Source of the DNA: Caldicellulosiruptor saccharolyticus DSM 8903
GTDB lineage: Bacteria; Bacillota; Thermoanaerobacteria; Caldicellulosiruptorales; Caldicellulosiruptoraceae
Reading direction: 5' to 3'
DNA length: 64,000 nucleotides
NCBI RefSeq assembly: GCF_000016545.1
Contig: NC_009437.1
Location: 2,630,501-2,694,500, forward strand
The notes beneath the pieces were generated by a model. The model saw only the letters and a list, made by a program, of their open reading frames with translations, searched no databases and was not told the DNA's origin. The translations under genes and the position numbers were made by a program. Of this stretch, positions 19,349-36,363 are shown piece after piece (position 1 is the stretch's first letter; each line of letters begins with the position of its first letter).

Positions 19349-20470
19349 TTATGATTTCTTCCTAGACATAATATCAAGCCAAACTGCAAAGACAAGTACA
19401 AGACCTTTCACAATGAGCTGGTATGAATATTCCAGGTTCAAAAGGCTCATGCCGTTATCTATACTTGCCATAATCAATGCACCAATGATAGCACCTGGAA
19501 CTGTTCCTTCACCACCTAAAGTACTTGTTCCGCCAAGGATTGCAGCGGCAATTGCGTCAAGCTCCATATTTGTTCCAGCACCAGATGTTGCTGCGTCAAG
19601 TCTTGATGTTAATACAATTCCTGCCAGTGCAGACAAAAAACCCATCAAAATGAAAATCTTCATGGTGACCTTTTTAATGTCTATACCAGAAAGTCTTGCA
19701 GCTTCTCTGTTACCACCAATCGCATAAACATATTTGCCAAATGTTGTGTTTTGAGAAACAAATGTCAACAATATTGTGAATATTACAAGAATTAACACAG
19801 GAATTGAAATTCCTTCATAGCTTATCATAACCCCTGTGAACACTGCAATTAAAGCAATTATAGCCACTGCTTTTGCCACTTCAAGCCCTATAGGTAAAAC
19901 TTCTAAGTTGTACTTTTTTCTCTTATTTCTCTGATTGATTGTAAGCAACAAGTAACCTACTATCAATATAGCTCCAAATAGAAGACTAAGAGGTTTATTA
20001 AGGTATCCCTGTCCAATAAATCTAAAACTTTCTTTAAAAGGCGATATAGTAATTCCTCTACTTGCTAAGAGCACTCCACCTCTGAAAATAAGCATTCCTG
20101 CCAATGTTACAATAAATGCAGGGACGCCTCTATAAGCAACCCAGTATCCTTGCCAAATACCTATTAAAATACCCACAATAAGTACGGCTATGACTGTTGC
20201 AGGAGTTGACCACCCATTCCATACCTGAAGTACACCAGCAATAGCTCCTGCAAAACCAACAACAGAACCAACTGAAAGGTCAATGTGTCCTGCAACAATT
20301 ACAAATACCATTCCTATTGCAACAAGTGCAGTGATTGCCATCTGTCTTGCAAGCATTGAAAGATTTCGCGGTGTCAAAAAGTTTCCATCTGTTAATATGG
20401 TGAATATTGCCCAGATGAGAAGAATGGCTATTATTAGAGTATATGTCCTTAAGTTTTTCTTCCAATTCAT
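19349..20470 (-). CDS. xylH: Xylose/monosaccharide ABC permease (XylH-like)
   Basis: 373 residues, ten or so membrane helices, CUT2 family. Diagnostic stretches are VAIGMVFVIVAGHIDLSVGS near the N-terminus and ELDAIAAAILGGTSTLGGEG near the C-terminus. It forms the membrane channel for a monosaccharide captured by the XylF-like protein. Third gene of the operon, starting two bases after the ATPase stop. The assignment to xylose rests on the XylF-like partner and the divergent XylFII/LytS/YesN-type regulator genes; other pentoses remain possible. Confidence 0.88.
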   Translation of the reverse strand: MNWKKNLRTYTLIIAILLIWAIFTILTDGNFLTPRNLSMLARQMAITALVAIGMVFVIVAGHIDLSVGSVVGFAGAIAGVLQVWNGWSTPATVIAVLIVGILIGIWQGYWVAYRGVPAFIVTLAGMLIFRGGVLLASRGITISPFKESFRFIGQGYLNKPLSLLFGAILIVGYLLLTINQRNKRKKYNLEVLPIGLEVAKAVAIIALIAVFTGVMISYEGISIPVLILVIFTILLTFVSQNTTFGKYVYAIGGNREAARLSGIDIKKVTMKIFILMGFLSALAGIVLTSRLDAATSGAGTNMELDAIAAAILGGTSTLGGEGTVPGAIIGALIMASIDNGMSLLNLEYSYQLIVKGLVLVFAVWLDIMSRKKS

Positions 20471-20472
20471 TA

Positions 20473-21990
20473 TTACCTTCCTCCTGTTGCCAATGTCATA
20501 ATCTTTTCTTGAGTTGCTTCTTCTGCAAGAAGCTGACCAGCAATTCTGCCCTTTTGCATAACAAGAATTCTGTCGCTCATGCCCAGAATTTCTGGCAGCT
20601 CTGAAGAAATCATTACAATACCTACTCCCTGTTCTACAAACTGATTCATCAGATTATAAATCTCGTATTTTGCACCAACATCAATACCGCGTGTTGGCTC
20701 ATCCAAAATCAAAATCTTTGGATTTGCCAGCAGCCACTTTGCAATTATAACCTTTTGCTGGTTACCGCCACTTAAGTTCTCAACTCTTTGGAAAGGTGAA
20801 GCTATTTTTATCCTCAACTTGTCTACAAAATCAAGTGCTGTTCTCAGTGATTTTGATAGATCTATAATACCTCCATTTACAAACTTTTGATAATTCGGAA
20901 GCAAGATGTTGTCTTTTATATCCATTAAAAGGACAAGTCCATATTGTTTCCTATCTTCAGTAAGATAACATATTCCATGGTCAATAGCTTGGCGTGGATT
21001 TTCTATACTGATTTTTTTTCCTTCAAGCCAGATTTCACCTTCTTTTCTACCAGGGTACGCTCCAAAAATACTCATGAAAAGTTCTGTTCTTCCTGCACCC
21101 ATCAAACCTGATATTCCTAATATTTCTCCTTCTTTTATTTCAAAGCTGACATTATCAATTATCTTTTTTTCAGGGTTATCTTTGTCATACACAGAAAAAT
21201 TCCTAACTTCCATAATTGTTCTTTTAGGTTTATGTTGCACTTTGGGGTAACGCTGGGTAAGTTCACGACCCACCATTCTTCTTATTATCTCATCTTCTGT
21301 AAGATTAGAAATTGGATCAGTCGATATTGTCTTGCCATCTCTTAAAACTGTCACAGTATCTGCTATCTCAAAAATTTCTTCAAGCCTGTGAGAAATATAG
21401 ATACATGTAACACCATGGTTTTTGAGGTCTTTCAGAATCCTAAAAAGTTGTTTTGTCTCGCCTTCAGTTAAAGCTGCAGTTGGCTCGTCAAGAATAAGGA
21501 TTTTACTATCTTTTGATATAGCCTTTGCTATCTCAACCATCTGTTGCTGACCAATTCCTAAATTTTCTACTTTTTCATAAACATCTATTTCTATATTGAG
21601 CTTTTCAAAGAGCTTTTTCGACTCGGCATAAACTTTATTCCAGTTGATTATGCCATTTTCTACAGGTTCCCTGCCAAGAAATATATTCTCGCCAACAGTC
21701 ATTCCTTTAACCAGCGTTAGTTCCTGGTAAATTATGGCAACTCCTGCATGTTCACTGTCTTTGATATTTCTAAAATGCTGTTTCTTGCCTTCTATAAAAA
21801 TGTCGCCACTGTAGGTACCATATGGATAAACTCCACTCAAAATCTTCATGAGCGTAGACTTTCCTGCACCATTTTCCCCAACAAGAGCATGAATTTCACC
21901 CTTTTTAACCTTAAATGTAACATCGTCAAGCGCCCTGACTCCTGGAAATTCTTTTGTTATGTGAACCATTTCAAGAATATATTCGCTCAT
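20473..21990 (-). CDS. xylG: Xylose/monosaccharide ABC ATPase, two-domain (XylG-like)
   Basis: 505 residues with two ABC domains in tandem, typical of CUT2 systems. Domain 1 has Walker A ALVGENGAGKSTL, signature LGIGQQQMV and Walker B ILILDEPTAAL. Domain 2 has the degenerate Walker A GISGLMGAGRTEL, signature LSGGNQQKV and ILILDEPTRGID. Both sites look as in working family members. It powers sugar import with XylH and XylF. It follows the binding-protein gene after a hairpin-containing gap of about 100 bases. Confidence 0.92.
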   Translation of the reverse strand: MSEYILEMVHITKEFPGVRALDDVTFKVKKGEIHALVGENGAGKSTLMKILSGVYPYGTYSGDIFIEGKKQHFRNIKDSEHAGVAIIYQELTLVKGMTVGENIFLGREPVENGIINWNKVYAESKKLFEKLNIEIDVYEKVENLGIGQQQMVEIAKAISKDSKILILDEPTAALTEGETKQLFRILKDLKNHGVTCIYISHRLEEIFEIADTVTVLRDGKTISTDPISNLTEDEIIRRMVGRELTQRYPKVQHKPKRTIMEVRNFSVYDKDNPEKKIIDNVSFEIKEGEILGISGLMGAGRTELFMSIFGAYPGRKEGEIWLEGKKISIENPRQAIDHGICYLTEDRKQYGLVLLMDIKDNILLPNYQKFVNGGIIDLSKSLRTALDFVDKLRIKIASPFQRVENLSGGNQQKVIIAKWLLANPKILILDEPTRGIDVGAKYEIYNLMNQFVEQGVGIVMISSELPEILGMSDRILVMQKGRIAGQLLAEEATQEKIMTLATGGR

Positions 21991-22091: not shown

Positions 22092-23147
22092 TTACTTCTT
22101 TCCATAAACCTGCTCTTTTGTAAACCAACCACTCTTAATAAGCACTTTGTCAATGTTTGACTTGTCAACTGCAACTGGTGTCAAAAGTATTGATGGTACG
22201 TTTATCTTACCATTGTAAACCTTGCCGTTGACTCCCTTGAGTTGAGAAACCTTCTTACCTTTTGCAAGCTCAACAGCAACTTCTGCAGCTTTCTTTGCAA
22301 GCAGTCTTACATCCTTGAAAACTGTCATTGTCTGTGTACCCTCAATAATTCTCTTAACAGCAGCCAAATCAGCATCCTGACCTGTTACAACAACCTTTCC
22401 TGCAAGACCCTGAGCCTTGAGTGCCTGAATAATTCCACCTGCTGTTCCATCGTTTGGAGCCAAGATTCCCTGGACATTGTTCTTTGCTGCAGTGAGTGCA
22501 TTCTCACAAAGTCTCATAGCCTCTTCTGGTTTCCAATCTTTTACTGGCTGGTCAAAGAGAACTTTGACTTTCCCACTCTTAACAAGAGGTTTGATGTACT
22601 TCATAGCACCTTGATAGAAGAGTGTTGCGTTGTTGTCTGTTGGTGCACCTCTGAATACAAAGTAGTTGCCCTTTGGAACTTTAGTTGTAAGATATTTTCC
22701 TTGAAGTTCTCCTACTTTAATATTGTCAAATGAAATATAGAGGTCAACATTTGCGTTTCTTATCAATCTGTCATAGGAGATTACTGGTATTCCTGCTTTA
22801 TGTGCTTCATCAATTATAGATGTGAAGACTTCTGCATTGTTTGGAACAATTACAAGGACGTCTACACCTTGGCTAATCAAATTTTCACATTGTTCTTTCT
22901 GCTTTACGTCATCCATATTAGCTGCTTGTACTAAAACTTTTGCACCAAGCTTTGTTGCTGCTTTTACAAACTCATCTCTGTCTTTGTGCCATCTCTCTTC
23001 TTGAAGCGTTGCAAGAGAAAGACCAATTTTAATCTGTTTTTTCGACGACTTAGCTTTTACGTAATTAGGAACAAACGCAAAGCCAATTCCAATTATAAAT
23101 GTTATGGCAATAAAAATAGCAACAATTCTTAATAGTGACTTTTTCAT
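22092..23147 (-). CDS. xylF: Xylose-binding protein (XylF-like)
   Basis: 351 residues with an N-terminal signal (about 1-33) and a type-I periplasmic-binding fold. Family marks are IGLSLATLQEERWHKDRDEF, VIVPNNAEVFTSII, VISYDRLIRN, ILAPNDGTAGGIIQAL and VTGQDADLAAVKRII, which match XylF/ChvE-type monosaccharide receptors. It binds the sugar outside the cell and feeds XylGH. There is no lipobox cysteine. The first gene of the operon, divergent from a two-component system with two related membrane-anchored binding proteins. AGGAGG precedes the ATG. Confidence 0.92.
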   Translation of the reverse strand: MKKSLLRIVAIFIAITFIIGIGFAFVPNYVKAKSSKKQIKIGLSLATLQEERWHKDRDEFVKAATKLGAKVLVQAANMDDVKQKEQCENLISQGVDVLVIVPNNAEVFTSIIDEAHKAGIPVISYDRLIRNANVDLYISFDNIKVGELQGKYLTTKVPKGNYFVFRGAPTDNNATLFYQGAMKYIKPLVKSGKVKVLFDQPVKDWKPEEAMRLCENALTAAKNNVQGILAPNDGTAGGIIQALKAQGLAGKVVVTGQDADLAAVKRIIEGTQTMTVFKDVRLLAKKAAEVAVELAKGKKVSQLKGVNGKVYNGKINVPSILLTPVAVDKSNIDKVLIKSGWFTKEQVYGKK

Positions 23148-23233
23148 TATAACATGACCTCCTCAATCAATTTTTTTGTTTGATTTGCAATATCATTTTA
23201 ACAACAAACATTTAAATTAGCACTATTATTTTT

Positions 23234-23267
23234 TGTCTTATTAGTGGAATTATTAAAAATGTCTTAT
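23234..23267. promoter_or_regulatory. Direct repeat in xylF/sensor intergenic region
   Basis: TGTCTTAT occurs at 23234-23241 and again at 23260-23267, 26 bases apart, upstream of xylF. AraC-type regulators such as YesN bind direct repeats near promoters, so this is a candidate site for the divergently encoded regulator. Confidence 0.35.
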
Positions 23268-23274
23268 AAAGTGA

Positions 23275-23306
23275 ATAGTACTTTTTTGAAATCAAAAAAG
23301 TACTAT
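23275..23306. promoter_or_regulatory. 32-bp near-perfect palindrome between divergent operons
   Basis: Perfect 15-bp arms ATAGTACTTTTTTGA and TCAAAAAAGTACTAT separated by AA, located 128 bases from the xylF start and 56 from the sensor-gene start. It could be an operator for the divergent promoters or a short hairpin blocking read-through. It is too symmetric to be chance. Confidence 0.55.
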
Positions 23307-23361
23307 AGGTAAGTTGCAAACAAAATGTTATAATGAAGACTGAGGGAGGAAGCAATAAAAG

Positions 23362-24336
23362 ATGAGGACTAAACTGCAAAAATTCAGCTTTCAGATTATG
23401 GTTGTCGTCAGTACAGTAATATTTGTAGCAATTGTTCTATACGATATTTATAATATACGATTTATTAACATCTCTACCAAAAAGGTTAATCTTAAAAACT
23501 CAACACGTGTAATGATGATACTTCCCCAAAATCAAACATATTGGAACTGGTTTTTAGATCAATTTGAAAAAATTTCCGAAAAATACGGAATATTACCTGA
23601 TATTGTATTTTACAACACTTCCTCAGAAGCGTATAAGTTTTTAAAGCTAGCTGAGGTTGTAAAACCAGATGCAATTGTAATGTGCAATATATATAATTCT
23701 AAAGAAATAGCCTATGTTCTATCTTCTTTAAAAAATAAAGGAATTTTCTTAGCTTCTCTGTTTAACGATATGCTATTTAGATATGAAGATGTATTTGTCG
23801 GTATTGATTATTATTACAAAGGAAAAATTGCAGGGAAGATTATATTTAAAGTACTTAGTGAAAAGAAAAATATTCCAAGCAAACTGAAAATTGCAATTGT
23901 AAACCCTCTTTACACAATTATTGGTGGCACACTTGAAGTAAAGGGGCTTGTGGATTTTCTTAAAGGAAAGGGTATCAAGAATGTAACAATAAAGAATTTC
24001 AATTTTGATTATCCCTCTTTTCCCCCTGAAGAGGTGGCAAGGCAATTAATTCTTGAAAATACGCAGAAATTTAACGTTATTTATGTGGGAAGTGAAACAG
24101 AAACTATGGCAGTTGCCCAAAATATTCTGACATTTAATAAGCTTGACCAGTTTATTATAATCGGTGCTGGAACCAACGAGAAATTGCAAAAGTATGTAAA
24201 AGAAAAAATAATCAATGGAATTATAAATGACAACGGACAGTTAATAGCCCAAAAGTTATGTGAAGCATTACTTAGCTGGAAAAAGTTTGGCCATGCTTCT
24301 TCTTACATCTCAACCAACTTTGAAGTGATTGAATAA
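23362..24336 (+). CDS. Membrane-anchored sugar-binding sensor protein (type-I periplasmic-binding fold)
   Basis: 324 residues with an uncleaved N-terminal helix (about 10-32: IMVVVSTVIFVAIVLYDIY) and one extracytoplasmic type-I binding domain (RVMMILPQNQTYWNWFLDQF; PDAIVMCNIYNS; VGIDYYYKGKIAGKIIFKVL; NVIYVGSETETMAVAQ). It is not a transport receptor: no signal cleavage site is evident, and it is co-transcribed with a LytS-type kinase 10 bases downstream. By analogy with XylFII-LytS, it probably binds a sugar and signals to the kinase through the membrane. It is more diverged from XylF than the second anchored protein at 27411. GGAGG lies upstream of the ATG. Confidence 0.75.
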   Translation: MRTKLQKFSFQIMVVVSTVIFVAIVLYDIYNIRFINISTKKVNLKNSTRVMMILPQNQTYWNWFLDQFEKISEKYGILPDIVFYNTSSEAYKFLKLAEVVKPDAIVMCNIYNSKEIAYVLSSLKNKGIFLASLFNDMLFRYEDVFVGIDYYYKGKIAGKIIFKVLSEKKNIPSKLKIAIVNPLYTIIGGTLEVKGLVDFLKGKGIKNVTIKNFNFDYPSFPPEEVARQLILENTQKFNVIYVGSETETMAVAQNILTFNKLDQFIIIGAGTNEKLQKYVKEKIINGIINDNGQLIAQKLCEALLSWKKFGHASSYISTNFEVIE

Positions 24337-24346
24337 GGTGAGAAAA

Positions 24347-25834
24347 ATGAAATTTTTTTCTGTCCAGAGCAAACTGCTCGCGTTTTTCTTTATTTTAATT
24401 GCTTCTTTGTTAGCAATAGATATTTTGATCCAATATAATAATAATTATCTCATAAGTTTAGTAAATGAAACCTTTGATACAATCAATACAATTAATAGAA
24501 CAAAACAAGATATAAATATACTCAACTCCAGTATTCAACAGTATTTAGTTGCAGGCGACTCAGACTCAATGCTTGCGGTTTACGGTTCTTTAAATTCAAT
24601 AAATGAAAAGCTTTTTATATTGGAAAATAAAATACTTGGAAAAGAAGAGTATTTATACTACACAAATCTTTCAGCTATTTTTGACTATTTAAATAAATTA
24701 GCAGAAAAGCTTGTAATATACAAAAAAGCGAATCTGCCTCTCTCAAAGGTTTATTCTGAATATATGGATTTTTCGGAGTTTTTTAAAGAATACCTTGAAA
24801 AGTTCAGTGAACAAAAAGTAAAATTTACCATGCAGATTCACACCAAAGTTCAGCAACAACTTAATACAATAAGAAAAATCAATATAACTGTAATTCTTAT
24901 ATGGACCTTGTTTGCTTCACTTTTAAGTATTGTTTTTAGCAGCACATTTGCAACTCCTATAATAAATCTTTCCAAGGTAGCAAACAAGATAGTACATGGC
25001 AATTTAGACGTACAGCTTCCGCCTTATTCAGCCAATGATGAAGTAGCAATTTTGTATAACTCATTCTCTAACATGATATCTAATATAAAAGAAATGGTAA
25101 AAAAACTGGAAGAAAAAGCTGATTTAGAAAGAATGTTTGCTCAACAAAAAATTGAGGCAATCAAATACAAGCAAGCTCTGCAAGAAGCAGAACTTAAAAA
25201 TCTCCAAGCCCAGATTAATCCGCATTTTCTCTTTAATACTTTAAACACAATTCTTCAGACAGCAATGTTTGAAAACGCTAAGCAAACATATGAAATTCTT
25301 CTAAGAACTTCTAATTATCTGAGATATGTAGTACACAACATAAACAGAGTTGTAAAGTTACAGGAAGAAATTGACAATGTAAGGAATTATATGTATATCT
25401 ATTCAATGAGATTTGGCGATAAAATAAAGTTAGAGATAGAAATAGAAGAGGAGTTAAACAATCTTCTTGTTCCATGCATGATATTGCAACCACTTGTGGA
25501 AAATGCCATCATTCATGGATTTAAAGAGCGGGAATGCGGTGAAATTAAGATTGCTGCATGGAAAATACAAAATCAAGCAGTAATTGAAGTTATAGACAAT
25601 GGTCAGGGAATTGATATTGATGTCATTGAAAATTTCAAAAATTTAGCTTTTGAAAACAATAAAACTACAGGAATTGGACTTAGTAACATTGCCAAGCGAC
25701 TTTCTTTCTTTTACAATATACAAAATCCAATGTCCATAGAAGCAAATCCACAGGGCGGTACAAAAGTAACAATAAAAGTACCATTTATAACAGAAATTTC
25801 TCAACTTCCTGAACAAGAGGTGGATATTATATGA
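24347..25834 (+). CDS. lytS: LytS/YesM-family sensor histidine kinase
   Basis: 495 residues from ATG at 24347, which has AAGGTGAG at proper spacing; the upstream in-frame TTG overlaps the previous gene. Order: membrane helix (about 9-29), extracytoplasmic four-helix-like region, second helix (about 180-202), HAMP, then His_kinase with phospho-acceptor in QAQINPHFLFNTLN and an HATPase_c domain (LVPCMILQPLVENAIIHGF; VIEVIDNGQGID; GIGLSNIAKRL). It phosphorylates the YesN-type regulator encoded next (ATGA overlap). The small external region suits sensing through a partner binding protein, in keeping with the XylFII-LytS model. Confidence 0.9.
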   Translation: MKFFSVQSKLLAFFFILIASLLAIDILIQYNNNYLISLVNETFDTINTINRTKQDINILNSSIQQYLVAGDSDSMLAVYGSLNSINEKLFILENKILGKEEYLYYTNLSAIFDYLNKLAEKLVIYKKANLPLSKVYSEYMDFSEFFKEYLEKFSEQKVKFTMQIHTKVQQQLNTIRKINITVILIWTLFASLLSIVFSSTFATPIINLSKVANKIVHGNLDVQLPPYSANDEVAILYNSFSNMISNIKEMVKKLEEKADLERMFAQQKIEAIKYKQALQEAELKNLQAQINPHFLFNTLNTILQTAMFENAKQTYEILLRTSNYLRYVVHNINRVVKLQEEIDNVRNYMYIYSMRFGDKIKLEIEIEEELNNLLVPCMILQPLVENAIIHGFKERECGEIKIAAWKIQNQAVIEVIDNGQGIDIDVIENFKNLAFENNKTTGIGLSNIAKRLSFFYNIQNPMSIEANPQGGTKVTIKVPFITEISQLPEQEVDII

Positions 25835-27387
25835 TTTATAAAATCTTAATTGCTGATGATGAAAAAATTGTTGTAGACTCAATTAAGTTCATTCTTGAAA
25901 ACAACCTCAAAGAGGAAAATATAGAAATTACAACGTTTTTATCCGGACGGGAAGCCTTAGAAAATTTACTATTTTACCAATACCACATAGCATTTATTGA
26001 TATAAAAATGCCAGATCTGGATGGTCTTGAGCTAATAGAAGAATATCGAAAACTCAGAAATTCCGAATTTCCTCTTTTCATAATAGTTTCTGCTTATGAT
26101 AAATTTGAGTTTGCTAAAAAAGCAATAAAGGAAAAAGCTTTTGCATACATTCTTAAGCCTTACTCAATTGATGATATATTATCAACTATAAAATCAGCTA
26201 TGGTCCAGGTTAACTATATGTTGGCAAAGACAAGAGAGAATATAGAAAAAGATGCTCAATTGATTGTAATGAGGAATCTTCTTGAAAATAGTTTTATCCC
26301 TGCACTTATTTTCAAAAATGCTCTTGATATTGTTGACATTAACCAGTATGAAAAAATTTTTGGGATAAATTTGAAAAGTGGATTTTTGTGTGTTTTAACT
26401 CTTAAGGATAAAAGTGATTTTGTATTGAATTTTCGGGAATTAGACAACATCAGAAAAGACATGAAAATATTATTTGAACATAAAGCTTTAATTTCAATTG
26501 GTATGGGAGAATATTTAATATGTTTTTTCCCAGCAAAGGACCAAAAAGAAACTGAATTTCTAAAAGAAAAAGTCCAAGAAATTTTAAAACAAAAGCCATA
26601 CTGGAACAATATAAAAATAGGTTTTAGTGACTTTTATTACTTAGAAGAAGGATATGAAAATGCTTTTTGGGAAGCATATTATAACATTCTTGATATAGAT
26701 ACACCTGATGACAAAGAAGAAAATGAACATTCATTGCTCTTGATTGAAAACTTAGAAGCAAAATTAATACATTCTATTAATAATCCCACACAGGTTCCAC
26801 TAATAGAAAATTACATCAATCAACTTCACAAACTTTATGTTGAAGTATTTGGTGAAAATAATTTAAAATACAAGATGATAAAGTTAATTATTATGTTACT
26901 TCTTGAAACAGGAGCAATAAATAAGGAAGAGTCTTTCGATATAGAGAAAGTAATTACTGAGATACTAAATGCTGACGCTCACCGCATTCTTGAAACATCT
27001 AAAAGGGCAATACTTGCTCTTTTTGGCAATGCAAAAGTAACCCATGAGCAAATTATACATAACGATTCAATAAACAAAGCTATAGATTTTATCAACCAAA
27101 ACTACAATCAGGAGATATCTCTTGCACAAATAAGTGCTATATTTAATTTTAATCCATATTATTTTAGCAAACTTTTCAAAAAATACACTGGCGTGAGTTA
27201 CAAAACTTATCTTACAAAATTGAGAATCCAAAAAGCTTGCGAACTTTTAAAGAATTCATCGAAAAGCATAAAGGAAATAGCTTTTATGGTTGGGTTTTCA
27301 GACCCAAACTATTTCATCAAAGCTTTCAAGAAATTTGTTGGCGTCACACCTTCATTTTTCAGAAACATGCCAGAACAATTAATTTAA
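25831..27387 (+). CDS. yesN: YesN-family response regulator with AraC DNA-binding domain
   Basis: 518 residues. The receiver domain has the acidic pair in LIADDEK, the phosphorylated aspartate in HIAFIDIKMPDLDG and the switch lysine in AYILKPYSIDD. A middle region of about 270 residues is poorly conserved. The C-terminal AraC-type double helix-turn-helix (from AIDFINQNYNQEISLAQISA to VGVTPSFFRN) is complete. It should activate the divergent xylFGH-like operon when phosphorylated. Four-base overlap with the kinase gene shows tight coupling. Confidence 0.92.
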   Translation: MIYKILIADDEKIVVDSIKFILENNLKEENIEITTFLSGREALENLLFYQYHIAFIDIKMPDLDGLELIEEYRKLRNSEFPLFIIVSAYDKFEFAKKAIKEKAFAYILKPYSIDDILSTIKSAMVQVNYMLAKTRENIEKDAQLIVMRNLLENSFIPALIFKNALDIVDINQYEKIFGINLKSGFLCVLTLKDKSDFVLNFRELDNIRKDMKILFEHKALISIGMGEYLICFFPAKDQKETEFLKEKVQEILKQKPYWNNIKIGFSDFYYLEEGYENAFWEAYYNILDIDTPDDKEENEHSLLLIENLEAKLIHSINNPTQVPLIENYINQLHKLYVEVFGENNLKYKMIKLIIMLLLETGAINKEESFDIEKVITEILNADAHRILETSKRAILALFGNAKVTHEQIIHNDSINKAIDFINQNYNQEISLAQISAIFNFNPYYFSKLFKKYTGVSYKTYLTKLRIQKACELLKNSSKSIKEIAFMVGFSDPNYFIKAFKKFVGVTPSFFRNMPEQLI

Positions 27388-27410
27388 TTTTTGTAAAGAG
27401 GGATGATTTT

Positions 27411-28430
27411 ATGACCCGAACATTGTTTAAAAAATCAAATAATTTAACCAGGAAAAACCTCTTAAAAACCACACTTTGGTTATTTATCTTTATCACTTTA
27501 CTGGTAGTTGTTGTTATCTATTTGTTATATTTTTTAAAAATTTACAACAAAATGCATACTATCGTCAAGCCATCAAAAGTGGTCATTGGCTTTGCAATGG
27601 GAACATTGAAAGAGGAGAGATGGTTTAAAGACAGAGACATTTTAATTGCCAAAGCTCACGAGAAAGGTTATGAGGTTGAATGGGTGAATGCAAATGAAAA
27701 CGATGTGGAACAAATAAATCAGGTGAAATTTCTTCTTAGCAAGAACATCAATATTTTGATAATTGTGCCTAACAATTATGAAAAGTGTAGCAGCGCTGTT
27801 AACCTTGCCAAAAAGCGTGGTATCAAGGTTATTAGCTATGACAGGCTTGTGAGAAATAGCGATATAGATGTATATGTATCATTTAACAACTATAAAGTCG
27901 GAGAACTTATGGCAAAGTGGCTTATAAAAAAAGTTCCTCGAGGCAATTACGCTTTTCTACTTGGGGACCCCGGTGATTATAATGTTCAGATGATCAAAGA
28001 AGGATACCATAAGGTATTAGACCCTTTTATAAAGAAAAAACAAATTAATATTGCATTAGAGAAATACTGCTATAATTGGAGAAAAGAGTATGCATATAAT
28101 TATATTACCAATCTTTTAGACCAAAACAAAAGAATTGATGCTATATTAGCATCAAACGATTCTCTTGCTGAAGGAGCCATTATGGCACTTTCTGAAAAAA
28201 GATTAGCAGGAATTGTGCCTGTCACAGGGCAGGATGCAGACATTTCAGCTTGTCAAAGAATTATCAAGGGTACCCAACTTATGACTGTTTATAAGCCCAT
28301 CGATAAACTTGTCGATTTGACCTTTGAAATAGTAGATAGGTTGATAAATAACAAAAGTCTTAACCCACCTTTAATGTTAAATAACGGTTACAAAAATGTC
28401 CCTACGTTTTTCTTGACTTTGTCAGTTTGA
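27411..28430 (+). pseudogene. Membrane-anchored XylF-like sensor (XylFII-like), 3' end cut by IS1634
   Basis: The protein starts MTRTLFKKSNNL at 27411 and has an N-terminal membrane helix (about 24-48) followed by a XylF-like binding domain: IGFAMGTLKEERWFKDRDIL, IIVPNNYEKCSSAV, VISYDRLVRN, ILASNDSLAEGAIMAL, VTGQDADISACQRII. These align with xylF at 22092-23147. At codon 334 the frame enters an insertion sequence and stops after five foreign residues (LTLSV). The missing 31 residues survive after the element at 30410-30503, so the original length was 364. XylFII proteins of this form bind xylose and activate LytS. The truncated 339-residue product keeps almost all of the fold but lacks the last strand and helix, so function is doubtful. 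Confidence 0.85.
28396..28411. repeat. Target-site duplication, left copy
   Basis: ATGTCCCTACGTTTTT, identical to 30394-30409, flanks the insertion sequence exactly at its inverted-repeat ends. Removing the element and one copy restores the sensor reading frame. Confidence 0.93.
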
Positions 28431-30393
28431 AACTCAAAAAGCTTGGGAGGACTGGGATTGACAAAATATGGACCTCAATTTTGTCACTACATCATTTGCT
28501 AATACCAATAAATTCTAAGCCTTCCTCATATGTGATGAAATTTTTCGGCCCCTTTATCTTCATCACATTCAGTATATCTCCAGCTCCTCCTTCTGTCCTT
28601 TGCTTTATCAAATATTTCTTCCCTTTTATCTCTATTTCAATAAAATTCATTGAATCTATTGCTTCCATTATCCCTTCACTACTTATTCCTTTACCTTTTT
28701 TCCTCAAAATATATTCCAATGTCCTCTGTAATAAAAATGCCAAAAAACATATCACAAAATGTCCTTTTATTCTGCTTTCTGTAAAGTGATATATCGGTCG
28801 TACTTCTAAACAGCTTTTCATTACTCTGAATGACTGTTCTATCTTCCATAAATCGTGATATGCTCCTAAAACTTCTTCTACATCCATATCCTTTTTGCTC
28901 GTTTGTATTGCATAGTAACCGTCAAACTTCTCATCTCGTTTTATCGCTTCCTCATCCAATACATATTCTTCTGACTTTGATTTCTTCTTCAAATATTTCC
29001 TCGCACCTTTTTTCTCTAAGGCTGTTATACTTCCTTTGTTCTCTAAAAGCTCTTTGGCTTTTGATACCAATCTCTCTCTGTCTTCTTTGTCTTTCTTAGC
29101 TCTCTTGCTTGAATACGTTATTATCAGTCTCTCTTCTATTTTAAACTCTTTACCCTCTTCATCCTTGATAACATTTGTTCTTTCCAATACCTTATATTTG
29201 AATTCATCCCCATAAATTTCTTCAGCATTCAAACAACTTTTTCCATCAAGCCTTTTATATCCTTCTTGCTCAAATACTTCATCTAAAACTTCTTTACTTG
29301 CATTCTTTAATCTGCTTGCTACTATATAATCGTATCCCGCTTCTTTTATCATCTTTAAATTTAATCTGCTGTTGAGCCCTTTGTCTGCTACTATCACTAT
29401 CTTATCTATACTAAATTTTTCCTTCAGTTTCCTCAGTATCTTTACCATTGTCTTGCTATCTATTGTATTGCCAGGAAAAAGTTCATAACCTATCGGCCTG
29501 CCTTCTTTGTCTACCAAAAGCCCTAACACAACCTGTACTTCATTTATCTTGTTGTCTTTGCTAAAACCAAAATTTTTAAGTTCATCGGCTCTACAACTCT
29601 CAAAGTATATTGTCGTCACGTCATAAAAAACTACATCAACTACCATCTTAAATAAATCCCTATTTTTCTGATACAGATACGTCTCTAAATCTTCTTTTAT
29701 ACTGTCAAGAAAATCTAAACACCTGTACAACTGATTTAAATCTATATCCTCTTCAAATCCAAAATATTTATTTCTCTGATGATAAGTTCTTAGTTTGCTC
29801 ATAGGTTCTATCAATCTCTGTATGGTCATTAAAAAACTTACTTTGTCTACATCAAATTTTATCTTTCTCCCTTTTGTTGCTCTCTCTTTTAAAAACTTAT
29901 CTATTTCAAGTTCTTCCCATAACTTTCTGAATACAATGTATCCCCAATTTTTTATAACTGCATCCGATACATCCTCTTCAGATTCAATAGTAACAGCTTT
30001 TGTATTCCCAGTAGTTGTTTTTTCAACAATGTCGGATAGTTTTTTTACAATGTTTTTAAAAGCAGGATCACTTTTGAGAAGATCAAGTCTACCAAAATTA
30101 AATAACACTCTTTGTTTTACCTTGCCATTTTCACGATAGTTTTCGACTAATCTAACATACTGGTAACCGCCAGCATTAGTTATTTTGACAAACATATGGT
30201 AACTCCTCAAAGGTATTTTGAGTAATTGTACCACAAAATATTCAAAATGTCAAGTATTTATAGCATATTTCAGACTATAATTTGCCACTACAATTTTTAA
30301 AATTTTTTATTTTTCTATTCTCAAAACCCGCATAAATTAAGACTTTGTTATTTTTTGTTAGCTCAAAAACTCCTCCTAACTGACAAAGTCAAG
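28412..30393. mobile_element. IS1634-family (IS4 group) insertion sequence, 1982 bp
   Basis: The ends are inverted repeats beginning CTTGACTTTGTCAGTT on both sides (the last bases of the right end read AACTGACAAAGTCAAG). It carries one full-length transposase gene on the minus strand and is bordered by a perfect 16-bp direct repeat. Members of the IS1634 group are known for unusually long, variable target duplications, which fits. The intact transposase and perfect flanks mean a recent insertion. Confidence 0.93.
28492..30195 (-). CDS. IS1634-family transposase (DDE)
   Basis: 567 residues from ATG at 30195, seven bases after GAGGAG; an in-frame GTG/ATG further upstream (30234) has no site. 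N-terminal family motif FVKITNAGGYQYVRLVENYR. The catalytic core is seen in VVFYDVTTIYFES (first Asp), IVIVADKGLNSRLNLKMIKE (second Asp) and the late YHDLWKIEQSFRVMKSCLEV, the Y-(2)-R/W-(3)-E-(6)-R-like signature of IS4-group enzymes. It cuts and pastes the element. It appears complete and likely active. Confidence 0.93.
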   Translation of the reverse strand: MFVKITNAGGYQYVRLVENYRENGKVKQRVLFNFGRLDLLKSDPAFKNIVKKLSDIVEKTTTGNTKAVTIESEEDVSDAVIKNWGYIVFRKLWEELEIDKFLKERATKGRKIKFDVDKVSFLMTIQRLIEPMSKLRTYHQRNKYFGFEEDIDLNQLYRCLDFLDSIKEDLETYLYQKNRDLFKMVVDVVFYDVTTIYFESCRADELKNFGFSKDNKINEVQVVLGLLVDKEGRPIGYELFPGNTIDSKTMVKILRKLKEKFSIDKIVIVADKGLNSRLNLKMIKEAGYDYIVASRLKNASKEVLDEVFEQEGYKRLDGKSCLNAEEIYGDEFKYKVLERTNVIKDEEGKEFKIEERLIITYSSKRAKKDKEDRERLVSKAKELLENKGSITALEKKGARKYLKKKSKSEEYVLDEEAIKRDEKFDGYYAIQTSKKDMDVEEVLGAYHDLWKIEQSFRVMKSCLEVRPIYHFTESRIKGHFVICFLAFLLQRTLEYILRKKGKGISSEGIMEAIDSMNFIEIEIKGKKYLIKQRTEGGAGDILNVMKIKGPKNFITYEEGLEFIGISK

Positions 30394-30503
30394 ATGTCCC
30401 TACGTTTTTTATTGACCCAATTGGTGTAGATAAAAGCAACATAAACGAGACGGTAATAAAGGACAATTTCCATACCTGGGAAGAAGTGTATATTGTAAAG
30501 TGA
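30394..30503 (+). pseudogene. 3' fragment of the XylFII-like sensor gene
   Basis: Starts with the second copy of the 16-bp target duplication and continues in the original frame VPTFFIDPIGVDKSNINETV and IKDNFHTWEEVYIVK to TGA at 30501. It aligns with the C-terminus of the intact XylF at 22092-23147 (INVPSILLTPVAVDKSNIDK). It has no start and cannot be expressed alone. Confidence 0.9.
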
Positions 30504-31387: not shown

Positions 31388-32725
31388 TTACCTTTCCAAA
31401 ACAACAGTTGATATAGACCTTGCTGGGGAGTTTCCACAGAATATTTTATTTTCAATGACCATATTAAACTCTATTTCCTCTGGGTTTTTATTTAGCACAA
31501 CCACCGCCAAAGTATCATCCCCATTCTTTGCTGCCAAAACCTCAAGTCTTGAACTACTGCAGCTGCTTTTGACTATTTTAGCACCCGGCTTTATGAATTT
31601 AGAAAAATGTCCTATATAATAATACGCATTTTGATAATAAATCTTTTTCTGGTCTTTATCAACAATTATCGGTGCGTCACAAAAGTTTCCAACATGATTG
31701 GGGCCTCCAACTGTGTCAAGAACAATATTCCAATCCATAAATCCAATTGTGTAGTTATTAAAATCACCAATTATCTCATGAGCATACCTTTCTCCAAGCT
31801 CCCAAGAACCAAGCTTTACTCCACCTTCCTGACAACCTTCGGTAAACACCAAATTCACATCAGGAAACTCTTCTTTTATTTTTTTGAGCTGGTCAAAATG
31901 GTCTCCTCCATACCAGTGGAATGCAACTCCCCATACAAATTTTGCAGCTTCTTTGTCACTCAAAATTGTCTTTACCCTCTCATATATGATATCTTTGTTG
32001 TGGTCCCATATAAGTATTTTTATATGGGAAAGCCCTTCTTCTTCAAGAGTTGGTCCTAAGCAATCCTTCACAAAATCTCTTTCCTCTTCAGCTGTGTATA
32101 TGCACGACTCCCACACTTGAGTTGCCATTGGTTCATTTTGAACTGTCACTGCCCATATATCAATCCCTTCCTCTTGATAAGCCTTTATAAACTTACAGAA
32201 AAACCTTGCCCATGTTTTTTTATACTCATCTTTCAACTTGCCACCATGGCACATATCGTTATTTGTCTTCATCCAAGCAGGTGGGCTCCATGGCGACACT
32301 AAAATCTTTAAATCAGGACAGTATTTCATTATCCTCTTCAAAAGTGGTATAACCATCTTCTTGTCTCTTTCAATGTTAAAATGTTTTAGCTCAACATCGC
32401 CCTCAACATCATCACAGCTGTAGGTACTTATACAAAAATCACAGCTGTTCATGTGGATTCTACAGAGTTTGTAGCCAAGCCCCTTTTCAGGGTCAAAGTA
32501 ACCTCTTAAAATCTCATCTTGCTGGTGTGGCAAAAGTGATAGTATATTTACCGCAGCAGCTTCAGTCAGTGCCCCACCAAAGCCTATTACCTTTTGAAAT
32601 GTAGTGGATGGATCAATTGTTATAACAGACTCACTTGTTAATTTGTCGCATTCTTTTATATTGTCAACTTGTTGCATGAAAGTGCCTTGCTTTGCTGTTA
32701 TGTAACATGCAATTTTTTTGAACAT
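31388..32725 (-). CDS. GH30 family glycoside hydrolase (intracellular)
   Basis: 445 residues without signal peptide, so cytoplasmic. The (beta/alpha)8 barrel of family GH30 shows FQKVIGFGGALTEAAAVNIL near the N-terminus, VSPWSPPAWMKTN, acid/base Glu198 in WAVTVQNEP and nucleophile Glu296 in VFTEG, with a small beta-sandwich at the C-terminus. The family includes glucosylceramidases, beta-1,6-glucanases and beta-xylosidases; the exact substrate is unclear. It lies 153 bases after the permease genes at 32879-36036 and probably hydrolyses the sugar they import. GGGAGG is 10 bases before the ATG. Confidence 0.92.
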   Translation of the reverse strand: MFKKIACYITAKQGTFMQQVDNIKECDKLTSESVITIDPSTTFQKVIGFGGALTEAAAVNILSLLPHQQDEILRGYFDPEKGLGYKLCRIHMNSCDFCISTYSCDDVEGDVELKHFNIERDKKMVIPLLKRIMKYCPDLKILVSPWSPPAWMKTNNDMCHGGKLKDEYKKTWARFFCKFIKAYQEEGIDIWAVTVQNEPMATQVWESCIYTAEEERDFVKDCLGPTLEEEGLSHIKILIWDHNKDIIYERVKTILSDKEAAKFVWGVAFHWYGGDHFDQLKKIKEEFPDVNLVFTEGCQEGGVKLGSWELGERYAHEIIGDFNNYTIGFMDWNIVLDTVGGPNHVGNFCDAPIIVDKDQKKIYYQNAYYYIGHFSKFIKPGAKIVKSSCSSSRLEVLAAKNGDDTLAVVVLNKNPEEIEFNMVIENKIFCGNSPARSISTVVLER

Positions 32726-32878
32726 CTTTAATTTGCCTCCCTTTGGTTTTCTAATTAAATGAGTTAGTACTGGAATATATATTCATTCTACTTCAAGAGT
32801 TTTTTTGAGTAAATATACTGAATTTTAGAAAAGGTCTCAATTTTGTTGAAAAAAAATAGCCCCCAAGTGCTCAACCTT

Positions 32879-33721
32879 TTACCCCTTCACAGCACCCAGG
32901 GTAACCCCTTTTGTAACCTGTTCGTTCAGGGCAATATATACTATCAGTGATGGAAGAGCTACTATTGTCATTACAGCAAACTGGACAGCATAGTTGGATG
33001 CATACTGACCTGCAAAGTTGTAGACTGAAAATGGTAGGGTCCTGAACCTGTCGGATGTCAAGTATGTTGCTGCCATAATAAATTCATTCCATGTATTCAA
33101 AAAGGTTGTAACAGTTACAGTGACCAGTGCGGGTTTTGAAAGTGGTAGAATAATCTGAAACAGGATTCTAAATATGCCGCAACCATCTATGATTGCCGAC
33201 TCTTCTAAGGCTCGTGGAATACTTCCGATAAACCCCGTCATCAAGAATACTGCCTGTGGCAGCGAAAATGCAACGTATGGAATTATTAGTGCAAAATATG
33301 AATCCAGTATATTAAGTTGTCTGAAAATAACAAAGTTGGGCAGAAGCGTCGCATGAATTGGTATCATGAGCCCCAACAGAACATATGTTAAAACCTTGTT
33401 GCTCCATTTCCACTCCATTCTTACAAATGCATATCCCATCATTAGCGAAAATAGAACAACAAGCAAAACTGATACAACATTTACAATTATACTATTGACA
33501 AAATATTGCGGAATTTTTCCATCTCTCCATGCAAGATAATAATTTATAAACTGTGGTGGATTGGGAATTTTGAGAATATTTGCTCCATATACATCTCCAC
33601 TTTTACAAAGCGAAAAATCAACCAGCCAAACAAGTGGAAACAGCTGTCCAATTGAGAACAGTCCCAGCACGACAATAAGCACAATCCTGCTTTTTTTGTT
33701 GAAACTACTTTCCCGTGCCAC
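32879..33721 (-). CDS. Carbohydrate ABC transporter permease (MalG type)
   Basis: 280 residues from GTG at 33721. GGGAGG sits seven bases before this GTG, whereas an upstream ATG (33736) overlaps that ribosome site and is unlikely. Six membrane helices; the EAA loop is ALEESAIIDGCGIFRILFQI; it ends VTKGVTLGAVKG. Forms the importer with the MalF-type partner 22 bases upstream. Like the others here it lacks a dedicated ATPase gene. Confidence 0.93.
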   Translation of the reverse strand: MARESSFNKKSRIVLIVVLGLFSIGQLFPLVWLVDFSLCKSGDVYGANILKIPNPPQFINYYLAWRDGKIPQYFVNSIIVNVVSVLLVVLFSLMMGYAFVRMEWKWSNKVLTYVLLGLMIPIHATLLPNFVIFRQLNILDSYFALIIPYVAFSLPQAVFLMTGFIGSIPRALEESAIIDGCGIFRILFQIILPLSKPALVTVTVTTFLNTWNEFIMAATYLTSDRFRTLPFSVYNFAGQYASNYAVQFAVMTIVALPSLIVYIALNEQVTKGVTLGAVKG

Positions 33722-33742
33722 GTCAAAACCTCCCATGTCTTG

Positions 33743-34630
33743 TTAAAACTCATAATTTTCTGGTTTAAATATCTTCTGGAAAAGAATATTGACAGCCAAA
33801 CATGCTATAACAAATAGCACTGAAATTGCATTTGCATAACCATATTGATATGAATTAAATGCACGAATGTAAAGATAGTTGGCCAAAAACTGGCTCGCAT
33901 CGCCGGGACCACCATTTGTAGTAAGATAAACTGTTTCCATCTGCTTTAAAGCATATATTATAGCTATAGTAAAATTAACCTTGATAACTGGCTGAAGCAG
34001 GGGCACAGTAATCTTTGTATAAAGCTTAACACCTGTTGCACCATCAATTCTTGCCGCCTCATAAAGTTCTTCTGGTATACCCTTTAGGCCTGCGTAGTAA
34101 ATCAAAAGTGCCCAGCCAAAACCCTGCCACATACAGATTATAATAACTGATATTAAAGCTGTTTTGGTATCCCCCAACCATTGCTGTTTCAAAAATCCCA
34201 AGCGCAAAAAGTCAAGTATCTTGTTTATAAGCCCATATTGAGGGTCGTACAGACTCACCCACATACGCGATGTTACAACAATTGGTATTACGCAGGGTAT
34301 AAAGAATATAGTTCTGAAAATTTTTTCTGCTCTGCCGCCAACTTTATCAATTAATATGGCAAACGTAAGAGCTATTGGGTGTTGAACAAATACATATGCC
34401 AGAGCAAGAAGTATCGCATTTCTAAGAGATTTCCAAAAGGTGGTATCTGTAAAGATTATCTTTTTAAAGTTTTCAAGTCCTATAAAATTTGGCTGACCAA
34501 TTCCTGACCAATCTGTCATTCCAAGATATACGCTGAGTATAATTGGAAAAAGAATTGCAAAAGTGTATATCAATAGTCCCGGCAAAACCAGCAACAAAAT
34601 GGTCCTTTTGTCTGACAAAACCTTGTACAT
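33743..34630 (-). CDS. Carbohydrate ABC transporter permease (MalF type)
   Basis: 295 residues from ATG at 34630, with AAGGAG eight bases before. A longer frame from 34666 has no site. Six membrane helices beginning ILLLVLPGLLIYTFAILFPI; the EAA loop is ELYEAARIDGATGVKLYTKI. Normal length for CUT1 MalF-type proteins. It lies between the binding-protein gene (across a hairpin) and the MalG-type gene. Confidence 0.93.
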   Translation of the reverse strand: MYKVLSDKRTILLLVLPGLLIYTFAILFPIILSVYLGMTDWSGIGQPNFIGLENFKKIIFTDTTFWKSLRNAILLALAYVFVQHPIALTFAILIDKVGGRAEKIFRTIFFIPCVIPIVVTSRMWVSLYDPQYGLINKILDFLRLGFLKQQWLGDTKTALISVIIICMWQGFGWALLIYYAGLKGIPEELYEAARIDGATGVKLYTKITVPLLQPVIKVNFTIAIIYALKQMETVYLTTNGGPGDASQFLANYLYIRAFNSYQYGYANAISVLFVIACLAVNILFQKIFKPENYEF

Positions 34631-34656
34631 ATTGTCACTCCTTGTGAATAAAATTC

Positions 34657-34695
34657 CTGCTCCCAAGACATTCTTTTTAAATATCTTGGGAGCAG
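34657..34695. other. Intercistronic hairpin after binding-protein gene
   Basis: Perfect 12-bp arms CTGCTCCCAAGA and TCTTGGGAGCAG, 15-base loop, no following T-run on the minus strand. Same position as the hairpin at 9930-9962. Confidence 0.7.
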
Positions 34696-34713
34696 ATGAT
34701 TTAATTTTTAGAA

Positions 34714-36036
34714 CTACTTAACTTCTAACTTTGCAAGCTCTTCAATCTTTGCTAAGAACTTTTCAGGTGTAATAGCCTTTGCAGCAAGCATCTGGCAAAG
34801 TGTTTCTGCCTCTGTCTTGAAGTTTGGAGTAAATGCATCCTGCCATACTGTACCGCTGACAGATGTTGCACTGCTAAATATTTGTGTTAGCTTTTTCTGA
34901 AGAACTGTCTCTTTTCCTGTCATGAACTTATCCCATGCTTGTCCTGGAACAACAAGTCCCTGCTGCCACCCAATTTTTGCCCATCTTGTTGGATGCATCA
35001 TGTAAAGAAGAAGTTTCATTGCCTCATTCTTAACCTTTGAGCTCGCAGAAACTGCATAGCCACCGCCGTGCCATGCTAAAATGTCTGTCTTTTTACCCTT
35101 GCCACCTGTGATTGTTGGGAAGTATGTCACATCAACGTTCTTCTTGAATGATTCTGAGAAGTTAGGATTTGTAGCCATTCCTACTTCCCAGGAACCCATA
35201 TAATACATTGCTGCTTTTTCCTGAGCAAACAGATTGTTTGCTGCACCATAGTCTGCTGCAACAAATGCGTCTTGGAATCCACCTACATTTACAAGATTTA
35301 CAAGATCTCTTGCTGCTTTCAAAAGAATCTGGTTCTTAGCGACAGACTTTTTGGAGATTGCATCATAGATGAGCTTCTGATCTCCGCCTTCTTTCACAAC
35401 AAGCTCCTGATACAGAATTGCCAGTATCCACTTATCTTTACCGTTTATTGCAATTGGAGCAATGCCGTTTTTCCTGAACACTTTTGCTGCATTCAAAAGC
35501 TCACTAAATGTTGTTGGAACTTTTACTTTGTACTTGTTGAACAAGCCCTTGTTGTAGTAAAGTACCATGAAGTCTGTATTTCTTGGAAGACCATAAAGCT
35601 TTCCATTATACATGAAATCTTTCAAAGAAGAGGTCTTAAACCCATAACCTTTTATTTGGTCAAGCTTTATCTCTGCTGCATAACCTGCTTTCATGACTGG
35701 CAAGAAGAATGATGGCTGACCCCATACCATGAAGATGTCTGGCATCTGATTTGTTGCAACATAAACTTTGAATTTCTGCTTGTAAGGCTCATCCTGAAGC
35801 GCTTCAACCTTTATCTTGACATTTGGATTTGCTTTCATATAGCTGTCAATCAACATCTGTTCAAGTTTGCCTTGGTTAGACGTCCTATCTGGTAGGTTGG
35901 AGAAGAATTTGATTTCTACTGTTTTTTTAGTCGATGCAGAAGCTGTAAAAGTACCTTGAATACCTGCAAATAAGCTAACAATCATTACTGTTACAAGTAA
36001 AACCGAAATAAATACTTTTAAGGTTCTCTTTGACAT
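34714..36036 (-). CDS. Extracellular sugar-binding protein (CUT1 family 1)
   Basis: 440 residues from ATG at 36036 with AAGGAGG at eight bases; the GTG three bases upstream is less well placed. Signal sequence to about residue 34 (VSLFAGIQGTFTASAS), no lipobox cysteine. Family-1 solute-binding features: KVKVPTTFSELLNAAKVFRK, AMYYMGSWEVGMATNP, AWHGGGYAVSASSKVKNEAM. Delivers an oligosaccharide to the permeases downstream; the GH30 enzyme is the likely next step. Divergent from the kinase/regulator pair at 36364-39780, which probably controls it. Confidence 0.93.
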   Translation of the reverse strand: MSKRTLKVFISVLLVTVMIVSLFAGIQGTFTASASTKKTVEIKFFSNLPDRTSNQGKLEQMLIDSYMKANPNVKIKVEALQDEPYKQKFKVYVATNQMPDIFMVWGQPSFFLPVMKAGYAAEIKLDQIKGYGFKTSSLKDFMYNGKLYGLPRNTDFMVLYYNKGLFNKYKVKVPTTFSELLNAAKVFRKNGIAPIAINGKDKWILAILYQELVVKEGGDQKLIYDAISKKSVAKNQILLKAARDLVNLVNVGGFQDAFVAADYGAANNLFAQEKAAMYYMGSWEVGMATNPNFSESFKKNVDVTYFPTITGGKGKKTDILAWHGGGYAVSASSKVKNEAMKLLLYMMHPTRWAKIGWQQGLVVPGQAWDKFMTGKETVLQKKLTQIFSSATSVSGTVWQDAFTPNFKTEAETLCQMLAAKAITPEKFLAKIEELAKLEVK

Positions 36037-36085
36037 CACTTTTTCCTCCTTTTTGCATTTTTCTTATTTAATTTTTAAAGACCTC

Positions 36086-36101
36086 TTTGGGGCGCCCCAA
36101 A
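36086..36101. promoter_or_regulatory. 16-bp perfect palindrome upstream of binding-protein gene
   Basis: TTTGGGGCGCCCCAAA lies 50 bases before the binding-protein start, in an otherwise AT-rich 324-base divergent region (36040-36363). With no loop it is more like a protein-binding site than a hairpin. A probable promoter for the kinase (TTGTGA, 18 bases, TATAAT, about 36280-36311) lies in the same region. Confidence 0.5.
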
Positions 36102-36363
36102 ATCAAATGTTGGAAATGAATTTTTCTTGGTTAAATTATATCAGCATACATTCACAATTTTAAGGTGACAATCTTTAAATTTGGTTTGTATTTTTTATGG
36201 ATATTTCAAGTATATATGTTATTAATTGCTATTAAAATTATGATGATTGATAGCAAGATGCATTTCTAAAAAAGAATATCTTGTGAATCTTATATATGAA
36301 GTTGTATAATATACTTTGACTTGGAGAATAAAGGCGAATTTAAAAAGAGGGTGTTTTTCTGAA

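Follow-up and report, generated by a model that had tools for sequence, protein, structure and literature searches.

A second, XylF-like binding protein in an XylFII-LytS-YesN-type locus of Caldicellulosiruptor saccharolyticus and other Bacillota: a candidate four-component sugar sensor

The XylFII-LytS-YesN system of Clostridium beijerinckii, reportedly described by Sun et al. in 2015 and Li et al. in 2017, serves as a structural model for the gating of a histidine kinase by a substrate-binding protein (SBP). In this system, in CuaDSR of Ruminiclostridium cellulolyticum and in the systems of Geobacillus stearothermophilus, sensing and uptake are assigned to separate SBPs, one for each task, according to the excerpted text of PMC10384115. 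We analyzed a stretch of 64,000 nucleotides (hereafter, the window; NC_009437.1, positions 2,630,501 to 2,694,500) of the C. saccharolyticus DSM 8903 genome, which is a single contig of 2,970,275 bases. In this window, a LytS-type histidine kinase and a YesN-type response regulator are flanked by two SBPs, here designated SBP1 and SBP2, beside the xylFGH transporter genes; the first-pass annotation had described this arrangement, and gene calls and family matches confirmed it. It is a real, conserved variant of XylFII-LytS-YesN that appears to have been overlooked in the literature searched. Neither a second SBP in an XylFII system nor a sugar-blind XylFII was seen among the open-access matches listed, as far as their excerpted texts go, with the papers of Sun et al. 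and Li et al. outside this scope. We estimate at about even odds (roughly 0.5) that the locus encodes a four-component sugar sensor with divided labor, in which SBP2 would read the sugar and SBP1 would relay the signal to LytS.

The genes of SBP1 (positions 23362–24336, 324 amino acids), LytS (24329–25834, with a TTG start), YesN (25831–27387) and SBP2 (27411–28430, an open frame that is truncated) are located on the plus strand, divergently from xylF (22092–23147), xylG (20473–21990) and xylH (19349–20470) on the minus strand. The overlaps of 8 bases between SBP1 and LytS and 4 bases between LytS and YesN, together with the 23-base gap between YesN and SBP2, fit one operon. The 214 bp that separate the divergent xylF and SBP1 genes (23148–23361) are the presumed target of YesN. 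XylF, the transport binding protein, scored 405 bits against TIGR02634 (cut-off 389.55); the ABC-type ATPase XylG and the permease XylH were named from sequence and position. Both SBP1 and SBP2 matched Peripla_BP_4 (52 and 177 bits, respectively), and no pairwise BLAST similarity was found between them (E 0.34), which rules out recent duplicates. Each of the two has a hydrophobic N-terminal segment without a lipobox; their membrane anchoring, assumed from the beginning, stands as a prediction.

The roles first assigned to the two SBPs have to be swapped. Profile matches and Foldseek ranks identify the diverged SBP1 as the homologue of XylFII, with SBP2 as the extra component. A profile of 14 SBP1 sequences matched the XylFII structures 5xsd, 5xsj and 5xss at 2.9e-32 to 5.7e-32 (5xsd, 2.9e-32) and GanP (6gq0, a glucose-galactose binding protein) at 4.9e-40. 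In the SBP1 model (mean predicted local distance difference test [pLDDT] score 83; input alignment with 14 relatives of 13%–19% identity), an N-terminal helix (residues 4–33) is followed by a two-lobed binding-protein fold; Foldseek ranked GanP (6gq0 and kin) 1–3 and XylFII entries 4–8. The top-scoring PDB matches of SBP1, pentatricopeptide designs, were dropped as a match of about 23 residues recurring along a repeat protein. SBP1 matched none of the NCBIfam models, showed no pairwise similarity to XylF, and gave no match in the first scan of genome contigs. A profile built from 13 SBP2 sequences plus the XylF of the window reached E. coli XylF at 2.5e-111 and the binding protein 4ywh at 2.1e-115, and did not reach XylFII entries at 1e-10; this miss, along with the match of the SBP1 profile to 5xsd, rules out SBP2 as XylFII. 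The SBP2 of the window is 42% identical to XylF and, in its truncated form, falls below the XylF cut-off of TIGR02634 (276.9 vs 389.55 bits). Genes annotated as a second xylF may be parts of sensors.

The pocket of SBP1 was analyzed at 12 positions that we take to be the ribose contacts of RbsB. The alignment included RbsB, 30 SBP1 sequences from loci with SBP2, 15 sensor SBPs assigned to an SBP2-less group, one undecided sequence and seven transporter SBPs. The SBP2-less set consisted of 12 named loci of the C. beijerinckii type, loci L142 and L139, and GanP, whose class was assumed rather than derived from its gene neighborhood. The contacts N13, D89, R141, D215 and Q235 were present in 14/15, 15/15, 15/15, 15/15 and 15/15 of the SBP2-less sensor SBPs vs 0/30, 3/30, 0/30, 0/30 and 0/30 of the SBP1 proteins accompanied by SBP2. 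In the window, SBP1 has Q, F, E, G and D at these positions, and glycine occupies position 215 in all 30 sequences. The seven transporter SBPs all have D215 and Q235, six of them have D89 and six R141, and none has N13; the undecided sequence (L138) has all five contacts. The aromatic contacts 15 and 16 are kept as aromatics in both sensor groups, and S9, N64, R90, F164 and N190 are replaced already in the SBP2-less one. Eleven further sequences or pieces from kindred loci, initially omitted, agree at every covered position; one of them (L025) comes from a locus that lost SBP2. PDB entry 5xsd, titled a D103A mutant, differs from 5xsj over 302 aligned residues solely at the position of D89, and the D103A mutation is said to impair xylose sensing in the study of Li et al. 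(2017).

In contrast, the pocket of SBP2 is largely preserved. Ten positions of E. coli XylF, which presumably contact xylose, were used, and the residue types at these numbers were checked. R16, W17, D90, R91, N137, W169, D222 and K242 were found in 30 of 30 SBP2 sequences, N196 in 22 (Asp in the remainder) and K19 in 18; the SBP2 of the window keeps all ten. Among the adjoining transporter SBPs, 7 of 29 differ at R16, D90, N137 and K242, and SBP2 is unchanged there. The transporter SBP of locus L020 has MglB as its best match (334 bits, under the cut-off of 420), and that of L040 has ChvE, also under the cut-off. In cluster B of L020 (9047–15449; cluster B is described below), a sensor unit whose XylF-type SBP2 has Phe at the position of K19 lies opposite a transporter with an MglB-type (galactose/glucose) SBP, which sets a xylose-type reader against a transporter of the hexose type.

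SBP2-like proteins (E ≤ 1e-75) were encoded in 26 of 398 genomes of the phylum. In 25 of these, representing 14 genera and 10 families, the gene follows that of YesN (the other frames are broken in one genome, G366), and the 26th match (G132) is an ordinary XylF. Since the gene order recurs in many genera, the arrangement is beyond chance. A search of the 398 genomes with XylFII (E ≤ 1e-30), which did not reach the window's own genus, revealed 26 places in 24 genomes. LytS adjoins at 15 places: 12 have SBP2, two lack it (G249 and G172), and one at a contig end (G158) was left unjudged, giving SBP2 at 12 of the 14 decidable loci. The other 11 matches are binding proteins with no adjoining LytS, and seven of them served as the transporter SBPs in the SBP1 pocket alignment.

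Within the genus, 12 genomes were compared. The cluster of the window, hereafter cluster A (SBP1-LytS-YesN-SBP2 opposite xylFGH), has four open frames in G001, G002, G004, G006, G007 and G010; in the window, the sensor frames are open save that of SBP2. A broken reading frame affects LytS in G005 and SBP1 in G011, G008 has lost most of the cluster, and G003 and G009 lack it altogether. Four paralogous genes opposite another transporter (cluster B) were found in G001, G003, G005, G006, G009 and G010, and in decayed form in G011. The identity between the two clusters is about 30% for SBP1, 42%–43% for LytS, 36%–39% for YesN and 58%–60% for SBP2. Clusters A and B lie in tandem, about 10 kb apart, in four relatives (L018, L022, L023 and L027); the window and others have only one, as if recombination between A and B had removed the other. 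The arrangement also occurs in a second genus of the family (G012, L039). In all eight further genomes of the class, a set from which G023 (having SBP1 and LytS) was left out, SBP2 follows YesN; its gene has a broken frame in G024 and runs off the end of the contig in G030.

The expectation that related genomes would keep both SBP genes at this place held in part. None of the clusters in the 12 genomes of the genus is missing just one SBP gene; where damage occurs, it is a frameshift, an insertion, or the loss of most or all of the cluster. Outside the genus, 12 named loci of the C. beijerinckii type (L121–L123, L125–L133) lack SBP2, though their SBP1 keeps the pocket. These loci show the six-gene order XylFII-LytS-YesN-XylFGH and belong to C. 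beijerinckii, other Clostridium, Caldicoprobacter and two metagenome-assembled genomes. They were obtained in a search for close relatives with XylFII and are not a random sample; of the 15 loci found, L124 and L134 (both cut off) and L135 (without LytS) were not counted. By locus, the broken frames are those of lytS in L022 (4402–5897), SBP1 in L028 (8264–9237) and SBP2 in L044 (6212–7292, another genus of the class), and L025 (9160–10932) has lost most of the sensor cluster, with no xylG seen there.

Phylogenetic analysis placed the SBP1 proteins accompanied by SBP2 on one side of a branch with support of 100/99, and a branch supported at 100/100 separates SBP2 from XylF. Across 28 systems (the window's own is excluded, L086, for which there was no transporter SBP, was left out, and the LytS of L022 is a fragment), patristic distances of SBP1, LytS, YesN and SBP2 correlated mutually at 0.90–0.96 and with those of the transporter SBP at 0.41–0.53. 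Of 25 splits, the sensor parts shared 17–20 with each other and 7–10 with the transporter SBP. For the 12 XylF-type systems only, the gap narrows to 0.95–1.00 vs 0.72–0.86. By these measures, the four sensor proteins co-diverge more closely with one another than with the transporter. This co-divergence, the conserved four-gene unit and the existence of two paralogous clusters bear out the original proposal that both SBPs belong to a single LytS-YesN pair.

In the window, the SBP2 gene is interrupted by an insertion sequence of 1,982 bp on the minus strand (28412–30393) with 16-bp inverted repeats and a transposase gene at 28492–30234. It is flanked by a 16-bp target-site duplication, with the left copy at 28396–28411 and the right one (30394–30409) at the start of the severed 3' end of SBP2 (30394–30503, plus strand). 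The SBP2 frame consists of native DNA up to 28411, followed by five foreign codons and a stop, and ends at 28430 after 339 codons. The 30 C-terminal residues are cut off, with their codons beyond the element, within 30394–30503. The end coordinate given in the first-pass annotation, 30503, fits these severed codons, but SBP2 is not whole in the window. In eight relatives, the SBP2 of cluster A is uninterrupted and comprises 361–364 amino acids. A second full-length copy of the insertion sequence was found at genome positions 1821112–1823099; the two copies are 100% alike, which suggests recent movement. The truncated SBP2 of this strain may function poorly or not at all. In cluster B of L026, a transposase 92% identical to that of the element is encoded amid the transporter genes.

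LytS was initially described as having a small external part, but this part is not very small. In the LytS model (mean pLDDT 75; predicted template modeling score [pTM] 0.42), two long helices that appear by eye to cross the membrane flank a region of about 150 external residues (limits also set by eye) with four predicted helices. This agrees with LytSN of the C. beijerinckii system, which Li et al. (2017) reportedly found to be an external four-helix bundle. The HAMP, His_kinase and HATPase_c domains were identified by sequence, and the structure nearest to the kinase domain is GanS. YesN contains a receiver and an AraC-type helix-turn-helix (HTH) domain. The YesN proteins read in intact systems with SBP2 have 509–558 amino acids, those in the 12 named C. 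beijerinckii-type loci 425–449, and those in the two other SBP2-less loci, L142 and L139, 542 and 472. Downstream of the sensor, the region 31388–38154 encodes a glycoside hydrolase that by eye resembles GH30, a putative CUT1-type sugar transporter and another putative LytS-type kinase (36316–38154).

Taken together, the following mechanism may be proposed. A membrane-held, XylF-like SBP2 with an intact xylose pocket would bind an extracellular aldose and close. SBP1, although of the XylFII family, would no longer hold a sugar in the known way but would still pair with the external helices of LytS, serving as an adaptor or pseudo-receptor. Once loaded with sugar, SBP2 would act on the SBP1-LytS complex, the kinase would phosphorylate YesN, and YesN would turn on the adjoining monosaccharide ABC-type transporter. 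The broader form of this proposal, which we place slightly short of even odds, is that in at least 14 genera of the phylum the sensor became a binding-protein relay: the XylFII homologue became a sugar-blind pseudo-receptor, and an XylF-like SBP2 switches the kinase through it, the role having been transferred once and kept through exchanges of the transporter. A recurrent natural variant in which the gating protein has shed its sugar contacts and acquired a partner points to ligand reading as separable from the gating of the kinase. If true, the gating mechanism would become testable, and a modular sugar sensor would be available for lignocellulose-fermenting bacteria.

Several observations weigh against this explanation. 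SBP2 is broken in C. saccharolyticus itself and frame-broken in G024, and 5 of 30 SBP2 proteins have a lipobox in place of a simple hydrophobic anchor. According to the excerpted text of PMC8579813, galactose, xylose and glucose induce the gxgABC orthologue of C. saccharolyticus, to which a two-component regulator is assigned; only if this orthologue is the xylFGH of the window would it follow that the system can do without a whole SBP2. Taken as a set, the 11 ligand positions of the SBP1 proteins accompanied by SBP2 exceed random columns in conservation (P 0.009), owing to residues 15, 16, 90 and 215, and the cleft of SBP1 may therefore have another use. The tree program warned of long branches meeting at the SBP1 branch, and the loss of the SBP1 pocket and the presence of SBP2, which fall on one branch, may represent a single event. 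SBP2 distances also track those of the transporter beyond chance (Mantel test, 0 of 2,000 permutations), with a partial r of 0.56 when LytS is held constant, in correlations uncorrected for species relatedness.

The conserved SBP1 cleft leads to the best surviving alternative, which we regard as unlikely: SBP1 would be re-specialized for another sugar, a glycoside or an ion, SBP2 would sense xylose, and LytS would integrate both inputs. In SBP1 accompanied by SBP2, new residues are indeed conserved at some positions of the cleft (Asn 90 in 27/30, Thr 194 in 29/30, Gly 215 in 30/30, together with Trp at RbsB position 16 in 30/30), variation at positions 13, 141 and 190 is below the column average, and the reported induction of the gxgABC orthologue by three sugars would be in line with more than one input. 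However, the residues that replaced three of the lost contacts are unlike each other: Glu, Leu, Phe, Ser, Asp and Val at position 89, Ser, Asp, Pro, Asn, Gly and Glu at 235, and Glu, Lys, Tyr and Met at 141. Positions 89 and 235 are among the more variable columns of the protein (74th and 62nd percentile), and SBP1 diverges faster than SBP2 (median pairwise identity of 23% vs 48%). The first-pass annotation had itself proposed that the kinase could integrate two sugars; this idea is weakened by the loss of contacts that the 15 SBP2-less sensor SBPs keep, and retains the conserved cleft positions in its favor. Sensing by SBP2 with relay through SBP1 gives a specific, testable prediction that the dual-sugar idea does not.

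Two further explanations appear improbable, to a similar degree. In the first, SBP2 stands outside the sensor and serves the transporter, as an accessory receptor held at the membrane. Its XylF-like sequence, its frequent position directly upstream of transporter genes and the residual correlation with the transporter SBP speak for such a role. Nevertheless, SBP2 tracks LytS more closely than the transporter, keeps XylF residues beside transporters whose SBPs differ (L020 and L040), and within the genus is encoded on the sensor strand, opposite xylFGH. In the second, the direct contact with LytS is made by SBP2, and SBP1 inhibits or antagonizes the kinase. A negative signal from the N-terminal part of LevT is one reading that the authors of the LevQRST study consider possible (PMC3043104, excerpted text), but SBP1 belongs to the family for which an XylFII-LytSN complex has been solved, and no homology links SBP2 to LytS. 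Finally, it is very improbable that the system is an ordinary three-component one, with SBP1 sensing like XylFII and SBP2 a decaying by-product, since, for all that SBP2 is broken in the window and in G024 and that a C. beijerinckii locus without it is reported to induce XylFGH (PMC4706839, excerpted text), the sugar contacts of SBP1 are gone, SBP2 is present at 12 of 14 decidable loci, and eight of its ten pocket positions are kept in 30/30.

Among the known systems, XylFII-LytS-YesN of C. beijerinckii shares with the locus analyzed here a homologous SBP with a membrane segment, a LytS with what is reportedly a four-helix external region (compared with our model), a YesN with an AraC-type HTH domain, and adjoining xylFGH genes. 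It differs in having six genes rather than seven, a single sensor SBP, and an XylFII that keeps its sugar contacts, including D103; in the window, the contacts are replaced by Q, F, E, G and D, and the unit contains a second SBP whose role in sensing is inferred. The GanP/GanS and AraP proteins of G. stearothermophilus (6gq0, 6swj, 6sw4) provide the closest structures to SBP1 (GanP) and to the kinase domain of LytS (GanS), whereas GanP, titled a glucose-galactose binding protein, keeps all five contacts lost in SBP1. Like the system considered here, CuaDSR of R. cellulolyticum comprises a sensor SBP, a kinase and a regulator, with a separate transport SBP, but its single sensor SBP is a 410-residue lipoprotein that binds cellobiose tightly (PMC10384115, excerpted text). 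In LevQRST of Streptococcus mutans, a kinase-regulator pair is flanked by two sugar-binding proteins, as in the window; it controls a phosphotransferase system and a fructanase, with no ABC-type transporter nearby as far as the excerpted text indicates (PMC3043104). LevS is described as having as many as five membrane segments and only a small external part, unlike the window LytS with two helices around about 150 external residues. Both binding proteins of LevQRST contribute, unequally: the complex depends on LevQ for its integrity, and LevT has the larger part in sensing (PMC3043104, excerpted text). LevQRST, likened by description and not by protein homology, is the nearest functional precedent for two SBPs that serve one kinase in unequal roles.

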